Assembly (NCBI RefSeq): GCF_000702165.1
Contig: NZ_JNKU01000004.1
Coordinates: forward strand, 1-64,000
DNA from: Sharpea azabuensis DSM 18934
GTDB taxonomy: Bacteria; Bacillota_I; Bacilli_A; Erysipelotrichales; Coprobacillaceae
DNA length: 64,000 nucleotides
Reading direction: 5' to 3'
Shown here: piece by piece, positions 19,284 through 22,881 of the stretch
How positions within the stretch are numbered: position 1 is the stretch's first letter
Layout: every line of letters begins with the position of its first letter
Notes under the pieces: generated by a model
Told to the model about the DNA's origin: nothing
Databases searched by the model: none
The model's input: the letters and a program-made list of their open reading frames with translations, nothing else
Position numbers and translations under genes: made by a program

Positions 19284-19301
19284 ATTCTTCTCCTAACAAA
19301 A

Positions 19302-19386
19302 AGGCCACTACACACGAACAGGGATCCTTAGTGCTGCTACCTTCCGGTCCTGACACGGTTCAGATATGTCCGTTGTAATGGCAAGA
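19302..19386 (-). ncRNA. ffs: Small signal recognition particle RNA (4.5S type)
   Basis: On the minus strand the invariant domain IV core GTGTCAGGACCGGAAGG followed by TAGCAGCAC is present. The ends GCCATTACAAC and GTGTAGTGGC pair to close the hairpin, and T5 follows. This is the short bacterial form of about 80 nt that binds Ffh. A consensus promoter lies seven bases upstream. Confidence 0.95.
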
Positions 19387-19417: not shown

Positions 19418-19489
19418 TTAGATGTTTGAAGTCCTATTTGACTATGTTAAAATAATCAATAATCAAACTCTTTCAAAGGAGATATAATC

Positions 19490-22027
19490 ATGAAAAATAT
19501 CGTAACAGGTTTTGTTGCCCATGTTGATGCAGGTAAGACAACATTATCAGAAAGCCTCCTCTATATAACTCATACAACAAGACATCAAGGACGTGTTGAT
19601 CATAAAGATACGCTTTTAGACTTTGATCAACAAGAAAGAGATAGAGGTATTACTATCTTCTCCAAGATATCCAATATTAACTATTTGGATACACATTTCA
19701 CTTTTCTAGATACCCCAGGTCATGTCGATTTTTCTGGTGAAATGGAACGTGCTTTATCCGTTCTTGATTATGCTATTTTAATTGTTTCAGGTATTGATGG
19801 CCTTCAAGCCCATACAAAGACAATTTGGAAACTACTATCACACTATCGAATACCTACATTTATCTTTGTCAATAAAATGGATATTAGTCCTTATACAAAA
19901 CATGAACTTCTCGATAATCTTCGAGAATTATCCGATAACATCATTGATATAGAAAAGATGAATTATGAAGAAATGGCTATGGCTGATGATGCTTTATTAG
20001 AAGAATACATGCAGACAAATGCTCTCTCTAAAGAAAGTCTCGTAAAGGCTATTCAAGAGAGAAAACTCTTCCCTGTCATCTTTGGTTCAGCACTTAAAAA
20101 TGATCATGTACAAGAGTTACTGGATATGTTGGATACATATACAATACCCCACTCTACGCAAAATGAACTCTCTGCTTCTGTCTACAAGATAGATCATGAT
20201 GATAAAGGTGAACGCTTAACGTATGTACGTATTTATGATGGAATGCTTCACGTGAAACAATTGATCAACGAAGAAAAGATCAATCAAATCAGACTCTATC
20301 AAGGAAACAAATATACATTACTAGAAGAAGCAGGAGCAGGAAGTGTCGTCGTATTAACCGGCCTCAAAGAAACTCAATCTGGAGATATTATTGGTAGAGG
20401 TAAACCGCATACGAGCTATCTCCAACCCTATATGCATTATCAGTTACATCTTGCCGATAATGAGAACCAAAGCAAAATGTTGGAAAACTTAAAGTTACTA
20501 GCTCAGGAAGAACCTCTATTGAATATGAAGATTCAAGATGCACAACACATAGAAGTCTCGTTGATGGGTGAAATACAAATAGAAATACTCAAAGAAATCA
20601 TTAGAGAAAGATATCATGAAGAAGTGACGATTGATTCTAAACAAATTTCTTATAAAGAAACAATCTTGGATTCCGTTGAAGGTGTTGGTCATTTTGAACC
20701 ATTACGTCATTATGCTGAAGTCCACATTCTTCTTGAACCACTACCAACTGGAAGTGGTATTGAATATGAGAATCGTTGTATGAATAACTTACCTGAAAAC
20801 TATCAACGTTTAATCATGACACATTTACAAGAGAAAGTGCATTTAGGTGTCCTTACAGGTTCCCCTTTAACAGATATCCGCTTTGTTTTATTAGGTGGAA
20901 AAGCTCATGATAAACATACAGTTGGTGGTGATTTTAGAGAAGCGACTTATCGTGCTGTAAGACATGCATTAATACGTACAACGTCCATTCTACTAGAACC
21001 ATATGGAAAATATGTCTTGAAGATTCCTTCTGCCTTTATCTCTAAAGCATTCTATGATCTTGATTCAGAACAACCTCCTATCATCACAGATGATAATGGC
21101 ACAACAGCCACAATAAAAGGACAAGCACCAATAGAAATGCTTTCAAACTATACTCAAGAAGTTCTGAATTATACAAAGGGAGAAGGCAGCCTTTCTATTG
21201 AAGAAACCTACTATGCTCCAGTTAAAGAACCAGAAGAAATCATTGAACAATTCCATTACAATCCAGAACAAGATTTAGAGAACCCAACTGGTTCAATTTT
21301 CTGCACGCATGGTGCAGGCTATTATGTCCCTTGGCAGATGGTTGAAGAGAAAATGCATCTTGATTATTTCATCAAAGAAGAAAAAGAAGCTGCTCCTATA
21401 ACACATCGTAAAATGCATATTAGCGATGAAGAAGTGAAACGCGTATTTGAAAATACTTATGGAAAGCAGGAAAGAAAACTTGCGAAAGATTTCTATGGTT
21501 CAAAAAAGAAAGAACATACCCCTACTGTTTCAAGCAACACATACCAACAAAAGCCTGAATGTTTATTGGTAGATGGCTATAATATCATCTTCGCCTGGGA
21601 TGAACTCAATAAGATTGCAAAGACAAACCTTGGTGCTGCAAGAGATAAACTTCTTGATATCATGAGTAGTTATCAAGGCTATCGTGATAATACTGTGATT
21701 GTTGTATTTGATGCGTATAAAATTCCTGGAAATCCAGGTTCAAAAACACAATATCATAATCTCTATGTCGTCTATACCAAAGAACAACAAACAGCTGATG
21801 CCTATATTGAAAAAGCGACAAAAGAAATAGCCAATCACTATCGTGTTGTTGTCGCTACAAGCGACAATGCCGAACAAACAATCGTAGTAGGACATGGCGC
21901 CACACGTGTCTCTTCAAGAGAACTCAAGGAACTTGTTGAACACACAAACGCCTATGAACAAGCTGAATATCATAGAAAAAATCCAATCGTGCCTGATACA
22001 CCATTGGATCATCTTAAGAAGGACTAA
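19490..22027 (+). CDS. TetM-like ribosomal GTPase fused to a Rae1/YacP-like NYN nuclease
   Basis: 845 residues. Residues 1 to about 650 have the EF-G/TetM layout: G1 AHVDAGKTT (10-18), G2 RGITI (52-56), G3 DTPGHVD (74-80), G4 NKMD (128-131), then domains II-V. A charged linker leads to a NYN/PIN-like domain at about 689-845 beginning PECLLVDGYNIIFAWDEL, with VVFDAY, TADAYIEKA and ATSDNAEQ acidic motifs, closely like B. subtilis Rae1, a nuclease that cuts mRNA in the ribosomal A site. TetM-type proteins are about 640 residues and act at the same site. Whether it gives tetracycline resistance is unknown. It stands alone on the plus strand with its own terminator. Confidence 0.85.
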   Translation: MKNIVTGFVAHVDAGKTTLSESLLYITHTTRHQGRVDHKDTLLDFDQQERDRGITIFSKISNINYLDTHFTFLDTPGHVDFSGEMERALSVLDYAILIVSGIDGLQAHTKTIWKLLSHYRIPTFIFVNKMDISPYTKHELLDNLRELSDNIIDIEKMNYEEMAMADDALLEEYMQTNALSKESLVKAIQERKLFPVIFGSALKNDHVQELLDMLDTYTIPHSTQNELSASVYKIDHDDKGERLTYVRIYDGMLHVKQLINEEKINQIRLYQGNKYTLLEEAGAGSVVVLTGLKETQSGDIIGRGKPHTSYLQPYMHYQLHLADNENQSKMLENLKLLAQEEPLLNMKIQDAQHIEVSLMGEIQIEILKEIIRERYHEEVTIDSKQISYKETILDSVEGVGHFEPLRHYAEVHILLEPLPTGSGIEYENRCMNNLPENYQRLIMTHLQEKVHLGVLTGSPLTDIRFVLLGGKAHDKHTVGGDFREATYRAVRHALIRTTSILLEPYGKYVLKIPSAFISKAFYDLDSEQPPIITDDNGTTATIKGQAPIEMLSNYTQEVLNYTKGEGSLSIEETYYAPVKEPEEIIEQFHYNPEQDLENPTGSIFCTHGAGYYVPWQMVEEKMHLDYFIKEEKEAAPITHRKMHISDEEVKRVFENTYGKQERKLAKDFYGSKKKEHTPTVSSNTYQQKPECLLVDGYNIIFAWDELNKIAKTNLGAARDKLLDIMSSYQGYRDNTVIVVFDAYKIPGNPGSKTQYHNLYVVYTKEQQTADAYIEKATKEIANHYRVVVATSDNAEQTIVVGHGATRVSSRELKELVEHTNAYEQAEYHRKNPIVPDTPLDHLKKD
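20244..20259. promoter_or_regulatory. parS: parS-like site (one mismatch) inside the GTPase gene
   Basis: TGCTTCACGTGAAACA matches 15 of 16 bases of the parS palindrome found at 10217 and 12986. It encodes LHVKQ in the GTPase frame. Confidence 0.7.
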
Positions 22028-22040
22028 ATCCTTCTTTTTT
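22016..22040 (+). terminator. Terminator of the GTPase-nuclease gene
   Basis: AAGAAGGA and TCCTTCTT pair around CTAAA, followed by T. The stem includes the stop codon. Confidence 0.85.
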
Positions 22041-22800
22041 ATTCATTATATATATAAAGTTTCAAATAATTGCGAAAATTATCCATCACATCAGTATTAT
22101 GGTATCCAAGAGAATACATTCTTGTCATAGTATCATAATCATTAATTGTTAAATAGTCGGAGAAAAATAAGAGTGGTATAAGATCAGTAGAATGAGGAGT
22201 GTATGCGTTATAAGATATATTTGTGTTTAAATTGATTCTAAATCAACAGTAGATTTTCTAAGTCTTTCAACCAAGAATGCTAGAAACAAGTATGTGTTTT
22301 TAAGGGTATTGAAATCACTAAAGATTGAGAGATTAGAATACGTAGTTACGCCTGTAAAAAACTAAATTGAATATAGTCATCCATGTCTTTCATTGTTGAG
22401 AAGAGTCTTCGATTCAACTCTTACTGTTCTCCATTTACACACATTGTATCGATAAGAGGTTTATCATATTCATCGACAAGAATAACGATTTTTTTACAAG
22501 TCTTCTGATATAATCCTTCAATATCTCTGCAAAATTGGGAAGAAAGATTCTGATTCTCAGTATTTATTAAAGTAAGGTGATATTGGGTTATATCTTTCTC
22601 TAAGACATAATTCAGTACAATAGCTAATCCCCATGAGAAATATTATATTCCTCTCCTGACAATGAAAAAAAAGAATAGGATATTGATCACAATTATATTC
22701 ATACTGATCAATATAAAACCCTTTGAATAATTCTTTCTTTCATTCAAAGTAAGATTAAAGCTTTGATACAAATAAGCTTTTTCCAAATCTTCTAGGTCTA
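22041..22800 (-). pseudogene. Decayed AAA-ATPase-like / PD-(D/E)XK family gene
   Basis: Minus-strand fragments in several frames match the AAA-ATPase-like (DUF1703-associated) family in the correct order. About 22425-22650 encodes WGLAIVLNYVLEKD and later KKIVILVDEYDKPLID, the Walker B region. About 22330-22400 encodes a DDYIQFSFLTGVT-like stretch. About 22080-22160 encodes SDYLTINDYDT and YSLGY. Stops and frame changes separate them and the C-terminal nuclease part is missing. These genes occur in many copies in gut bacteria and decay often. Boundaries are approximate. Confidence 0.7.
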
Positions 22801-22851
22801 CTAAAAAATAGGAATCACCATTTCTCTAATATCATACCCTGAAACATTATA

Positions 22852-22881
22852 AAAAGAAGATTCAAGCGAATCTTCTTTTTT
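22852..22881. terminator. Terminator of serS
   Basis: AAAAGAAGATTC and GAATCTTCTTTT pair around AAGC with T-runs on both strands, directly after the serS stop. Confidence 0.85.

Follow-up and report, generated by a model that had tools for sequence, protein, structure and literature searches.

A translational GTPase fused to a Rae1-like nuclease in Sharpea azabuensis, the probable Rae1 of its lineage

The window analyzed here is a stretch of 64,000 nucleotides of Sharpea azabuensis DSM 18934 (contig NZ_JNKU01000004.1, positions 1 to 64,000). At positions 19490-22027 of the forward strand it contains a single intact ORF of 845 amino acids, which starts with ATG and runs in one frame with zero internal stops. 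Pfam assigns five EF-G-type domains to the encoded protein, followed by a NYN_YacP domain at residues 692-832. The gene, its control elements and the segments of the fusion protein are listed below.

19426..19453, + strand: promoter-like site TTGAAG-16-TAAAAT with TG (consensus match only)
19475..19483, + strand: ribosome-binding site AAAGGAGAT (read directly)
19490..22027, + strand: whole fusion gene, 845 aa, stop codon included (ORF reading, Pfam)
19502..20143, + strand: GTPase (G) domain, residues 5-218 (Pfam GTP_EFTU 3e-51, alignments)
20168..20632, + strand: domains II and III, EF-G_D2 residues 227-301 and EFG_III residues 312-381 (Pfam)
20642..20974, + strand: domain IV, EFG_IV residues 385-495 (Pfam; decoding-center role by homology)
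20897..20938, + strand: domain IV tip (loop III), residues 470-483, subfamily motif GxAHxKHTxGGDFR (alignments)
20990..21229, + strand: domain V, EFG_C residues 501-580 (Pfam)
21293..21358, + strand: C-terminal extension, hairpin and helix, residues 602-623 (alignment, predicted model)
21380..21559, + strand: flexible linker, residues 631-690, pLDDT mostly <50 (AlphaFold2 model)
21425..21460, + strand: short helix 646-657 inside the linker, motif DEELxxIFxxTYG, also given as DEELxxIFxRTYG (model, alignment)
21563..21985, + strand: NYN_YacP/Rae1-like nuclease, residues 692-832 (Pfam, alignments, structure match)
22016..22036, + strand: intrinsic-terminator-like hairpin overlapping the stop codon (0 expected in shuffles)

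With a promoter-like site upstream and a terminator-like hairpin at its stop codon, the fusion gene appears from its sequence to be monocistronic. The promoter-like site ends 36 bases 5' of the start codon, which leaves no space for a leader ORF or an attenuator, and neither was found between the two. No conserved operon partners of the fusion were detected, the most frequent neighbor cluster being present in 10 of 80 fused loci. The gene for the bacterial small SRP RNA (ffs; Rfam, 63 bits) lies at 19298-19385 on the reverse strand, divergent from the fusion gene, and has a promoter-like site of its own with a perfect TTGACA-16-TATAAT. On the other side, between the fusion and serS, a broken PF09820 (AAA-ATPase_like) remnant with interrupted frames occupies 22421-22860 of the reverse strand, the PF09820 piece itself spanning 22424-22642 (E 5e-8). 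Comparison of the fusion genes of Sharpea azabuensis and Sharpea porci gave dN/dS values of 0.075 for the GTPase, 0.044 for the linker, and 0.056 for the nuclease, which indicates that every part of the fusion is maintained.

A preliminary description of the locus had proposed that a GTPase and a Rae1-like nuclease are fused on one chain, and the single ORF, the Pfam matches to both halves and the full-length relatives bear this out; EFG_IV and NYN_YacP, the Pfam pair it had recommended searching for, occur together in this protein. It was also correct that the GTPase has all of the G motifs and domains, but the extent it gave, residues 1-650, was too long, as the GTPase reaches only to about residue 625 and the linker comes next. 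The G motifs are intact (G1 AHVDAGKTT, G3 DTPGH, G4 NKMD, and G5 GSAL) and nearly all invariant in an alignment of 53 fusions; with domains I-V present as well, this half is a translational GTPase of the EF-G/EF2 type. Its C-terminal extension sits where that of TetM does, which is also where unfused relatives stop. Directly after this extension begins the linker, of about 65 residues in Sharpea azabuensis and 63-135 aa across fusions. Structure prediction, likewise recommended, was carried out with AlphaFold2 from 53 homologues and yielded a model of the whole fusion with a mean pLDDT of 80, in which most of the GTPase part and of the nuclease is predicted with confidence and residues 631-686 of the linker fall mostly below 50, helix 646-657 excepted. 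The motif of this helix, set in an otherwise disordered linker, recurs in 59 of 76 fusions and is missing from the unfused relatives, which end ahead of it. The whole-fusion model matches EF-G and TetM structures, with EF-G structures scoring best.

The preliminary description had named two findings that would speak against it, an assembly error joining two genes and loss of the catalytic Asp residues. When one genome per species was scanned, at least 590 related stretches were found, and the best 80, which were kept, all cover the query, starting at about residue 1 and reaching at least residue 810. The copy in Sharpea porci, the closest named organism among the matches listed, is 93% identical over residues 1-845. 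Since both halves are aligned in the best 80 of at least 590 relatives, an assembly chimera is ruled out, and a degenerate nuclease is likewise ruled out by the invariant active site described below. Near-full-length fusions are also present in MT835563.1 (L195) and MT835514.1, two human faecal scaffolds that carry the name 'Bacteriophage sp.' and no annotation, and that may be bacterial. One of these two matches is labeled unverified, and they were not counted as evidence for a phage gene; a search of a viral structure library gave generic GTPase matches only.

The architecture has been known since 2015, when 'Tet proteins with YacP-like NYN domain' were described in ten species of Clostridiales and read as resistance proteins (Atkinson 2015, PMC4342817). 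Those proteins, Tet-like GTPases with NYN_YacP, almost certainly belong to the same group as the fusion. That study preceded the Rae1 paper of 2017. To it the present analysis adds that the fusion has apparently taken the place of Rae1, that its GTPase belongs to a subfamily of its own, that the fusion probably arose once, and that most fused copies have lost the C-terminal helix. A literature search, with the primary Rae1 papers outside its reach, found no functional test of the fusion.

The C-terminal part had been described as a Rae1/YacP NYN nuclease with acidic motifs, and this assignment held in sequence, fold, and active site. NYN_YacP matches residues 692-832 with 167 bits against a curated cutoff of 24.6 (3.5e-49), and the nuclease half matches the B. 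subtilis Rae1 crystal structures 5mq8/5mq9 by sequence at 3.5e-26. When the nuclease domain was folded alone with AlphaFold2, these two structures were the sole PDB matches at E<0.001 (5mq9, E 9e-12, TM 0.79). The active-site residues D695, N698, D741, D770, and D792 align with those of Rae1 and are invariant in 53 aligned fusions. Published accounts of B. subtilis Rae1 present it as an mRNA endonuclease whose activity depends on translation (PMC10100781, PMC11780869). Two traits typical of standalone members, which are not formal definitions of Rae1, are a C-terminal helix and the gene order rlmB-rae1-sigH. The standalone terminus is a conserved basic helix, LExxRR (FEKWRR in the W164-R166 region of B. 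subtilis), found in 18 of 18 standalone proteins (14 with exactly LE[KR]x[RK] and 4 with close variants) and in about 4 of 111 fused proteins drawn from two slightly overlapping sets. R166P was recovered as a loss-of-function allele of rae1 in B. subtilis (PMC6613710). Read most simply, the loss of the helix in most fusions and the effect of this allele suggest that the GTPase half may now do the job of the helix, probably ribosome docking.

To see how the nuclease is distributed, 196 genomes were sampled evenly across Clostridia, the class that includes Ruminococcus bromii. NYN_YacP scored over its cutoff in 133 of these, once per genome, as 59 standalone frames (168-216 aa), 70 fused frames, and 4 truncated frames that were counted with the fusions to give 74. 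Not one of the 196 genomes has both a standalone and a fused copy; independent occurrence would have given about 22 such genomes (hypergeometric 5e-16, a value that ignores shared ancestry). About a third of the sampled Clostridia have no NYN_YacP at all, and the function is thus dispensable. In a separate search, all 24 fusion genomes had a single NYN_YacP copy over cutoff, the fused one, and the same is true of the Sharpea azabuensis genome; its relatives likewise have a single copy, nearly all of their matches being fused frames, and two of them have short frames, one of 160 and one of 211 aa. Where rae1 stands alone, the gene order, with identities by Pfam, is cysS-mrnC-rlmB-rae1-sigH, often followed by tuf, and the sigH and rlmB clusters are found at 16/16 and 14/16 of the loci, respectively. 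The products of mrnC and rlmB act on 23S rRNA. The fusion gene lies outside the rlmB-rae1-sigH order. On contig C13 of Sharpea azabuensis, cysS, mrnC, rlmB, and a sigH-like gene follow one another in this order, with rlmB abutting the sigma gene and rae1 absent. That the fusion replaces standalone Rae1 is well supported, and it is likely that the fusion is the functional Rae1 of this lineage.

Both halves are monophyletic. In a maximum-likelihood tree the fused GTPases group in a single clade (99/100), whose sister group is made up of unfused Clostridia proteins of about 650 aa (98/92); the clade of fused and unfused proteins (100/99) falls outside Tet and EF-G, to which the branches are long, so that the deeper order is unsure. 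The unfused members match the GTPase half with E values of about 1e-131 to 1e-141, as compared to about 1e-75 for Tet-type proteins. In the NYN tree, the fused and standalone nucleases split cleanly (100/99). One clade for each half is consistent with a single ancient fusion that would have been inherited since, and the fusion is kept across Clostridia and Erysipelotrichales. A GTPase encoded on a Ligilactobacillus salivarius megaplasmid (L174:6001-7920) branches from inside the fused clade, in a group supported at 96/94, and ends after the C-terminal extension, with no nuclease; the L. salivarius lineage evidently undid the fusion, losing the nuclease and keeping the GTPase. An rpsN (S14) gene lies near this megaplasmid gene, and the nuclease-less GTPase is present in 33 Ligilactobacillus plasmid records, which are mostly annotated as tetracycline resistance. 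A literature search on the tetracycline phenotype of L. salivarius found nothing usable. Among 20 genomes with standalone Rae1, only 5 were found to have an unfused relative of the GTPase, and one such relative occurred in the absence of Rae1, a patchy pattern indicating that the GTPase has no strict link to the nuclease. An adjacent unfused pair was considered as the ancestor and rejected, as in the genomes that have both genes the unfused GTPase and standalone rae1 lie on different contigs or >300 kb apart.

GTPases of the EF-G/TetM type bind the factor site of the ribosome and place domain IV in the decoding center. In TetM, the helix of the C-terminal extension is important for function (PMC4750697). 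Based on these two points and on the start of the linker right after the extension, our current proposal is a tethered nuclease. We consider it reasonably probable that the fusion is the only Rae1-type nuclease of its lineage and is delivered by its own GTPase to ribosomes with an empty A site, and we lean, by a slighter degree, toward a GTPase half that controls or delivers the cut. In the proposed sequence of events, the GTPase half in its GTP state would bind the factor site of empty-A-site ribosomes, whether these are paused, starved, or stalled by a drug, and would direct domain IV and the C-terminal extension at the decoding center. During or after GTP hydrolysis domain IV would withdraw, and the tethered nuclease would reach the A-site codon and cut the mRNA. 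The cut mRNA would then be degraded, and the truncated ribosome complex would pass to tmRNA-SmpB; tmRNA and SmpB are both encoded in the Sharpea azabuensis genome. Ribosome binding, GTP dependence, A-site cleavage, and feeding of tmRNA by the fusion are all putative. Domain IV and a docked Rae1 probably compete for the 30S A site, where simultaneous action would not be feasible, and because both halves want the same space a hand-off is assumed. This hand-off is the weakest step of the mechanism. That GTP binding and hydrolysis gate the entry of the nuclease into the A site, such that GTP-gated cleavage on stalled ribosomes replaced free Rae1 in many gut Clostridia and Erysipelotrichales, is a tentative prediction to which we give slightly less than an even chance. 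The preliminary proposal that the fusion both clears and cleaves at the ribosome is possible, although the present analysis yielded nothing in favor of tetracycline clearing.

The GTPase and the nuclease could instead have independent ribosomal functions and merely be co-produced on one chain. The long and flexible linker, the occurrence of unfused GTPases without Rae1 as well as with Rae1 encoded elsewhere, and the survival of the L. salivarius GTPase after loss of its nuclease are what such a chain could show. We regard this as unlikely, however, since a fusion of one origin has remained intact throughout Clostridia and Erysipelotrichales, the linker evolves under purifying selection and has a motif that recurs among fusions, and the fused nuclease has mostly lost its own C-terminal helix.

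A distinctly less probable reading is that of Atkinson 2015, in which the fusion is a tetracycline ribosomal protection protein with an accessory RNase, the GTPase removing tetracycline and the NYN domain adding RNase-based resistance. Tet is the nearest named family, the best curated model for the GTPase half being NCBIfam tet_protect, and public records name the fusions 'translation factor GTPase family protein' or, in some cases, 'TetM/TetW/TetO/TetS family'. However, the tet_protect score is 390 bits against a cutoff of 775, while a TetM/W-type ribosomal protection protein of 639 aa from the same genome (L002, contig C35:22965-24815), used as a positive control, passes both this model (819 vs 775) and the M/W model (1273 vs 1100). 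The clade is separate from Tet, and identity to TetM/O is about 30%, a level that for the unfused sister clade extends to TetB(P), Tet(Q), and Tet(36). Loop III reads AHDKHTVGGDFR in the Sharpea azabuensis fusion, YYSPVSTPADFR in Tet, and SYHDVDSSE in EF-G, and the loop of the fusions is itself highly conserved, K475, H476, T477, and the stretch G479 to R483 being the same in all 53 fusions aligned. TetM P509 aligns with K475 of the fusion. A TetM S508A/P509A/V510A triple mutant is still active (PMC4750697), so a differing loop III alone is no bar to tetracycline removal. Replacement of a housekeeping nuclease would be unexpected of an acquired resistance gene, and a regulated resistance gene was rejected on the grounds that no leader or attenuator precedes the fusion. 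The label 'TetM-like' in the preliminary description was therefore imprecise: the EF-G/TetM layout stands and membership in Tet does not, the GTPase being of a separate translational subfamily outside Tet and EF-G. Its suggestion of a rescue or antibiotic-response factor rather than a resistance gene fits the replacement of standalone Rae1, the failed Tet models, and the non-Tet domain IV tip, and its interpretation as a whole is partly supported.

Least probable is an rRNA- or tRNA-processing enzyme whose GTPase brings the nuclease to assembling ribosomes, which would fit the first proposal of NYN domains as rRNA/tRNA maturation factors (cited in PMC4342817) and the position of standalone rae1 beside mrnC and rlmB, but the papers on B. 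subtilis Rae1 describe an enzyme that cuts mRNA in a translation-dependent manner (PMC10100781, PMC11780869), and EF-G-type GTPases target whole 70S ribosomes.

Taken together, the findings suggest that the fusion is the Rae1 of the cell and not an antibiotic-resistance gene. If so, a protein of gut genomes that is often annotated as a tetracycline-resistance factor would be an mRNA-surveillance enzyme, which bears on resistance-gene surveys, and a translational GTPase would deliver a nuclease to the ribosome. The recruitment of Rae1 to stalled ribosomes and the role of this GTPase subfamily would thereby become testable.

Among known systems, Rae1/YacP of Bacillus subtilis (5mq8, 5mq9) shares with the fusion the NYN fold, the acidic catalytic residues, the DGYN and TSD motifs, and a single copy per genome, whereas the fusion has a GTPase, mostly lacks the basic C-terminal helix, and lies outside the rlmB-rae1-sigH operon. 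Tet(M)/Tet(O) resemble the fusion in their EF-G-like arrangement of five domains and in the C-terminal extension, and differ from it in clade, in curated-model scores, in loop III of domain IV, and in having no nuclease. Elongation factor G shares the fold and the GTPase motifs and differs in the domain IV tip; Sharpea azabuensis has its own EF-G besides the fusion. The unfused 'translation factor GTPase family' proteins of about 650 aa from Clostridia, Paenibacillus, and L. salivarius share the type of domain IV tip seen in the fusion and are sister to the GTPase half (Clostridia) or nested within its clade (L. salivarius), but terminate right after the C-terminal extension, without a nuclease.
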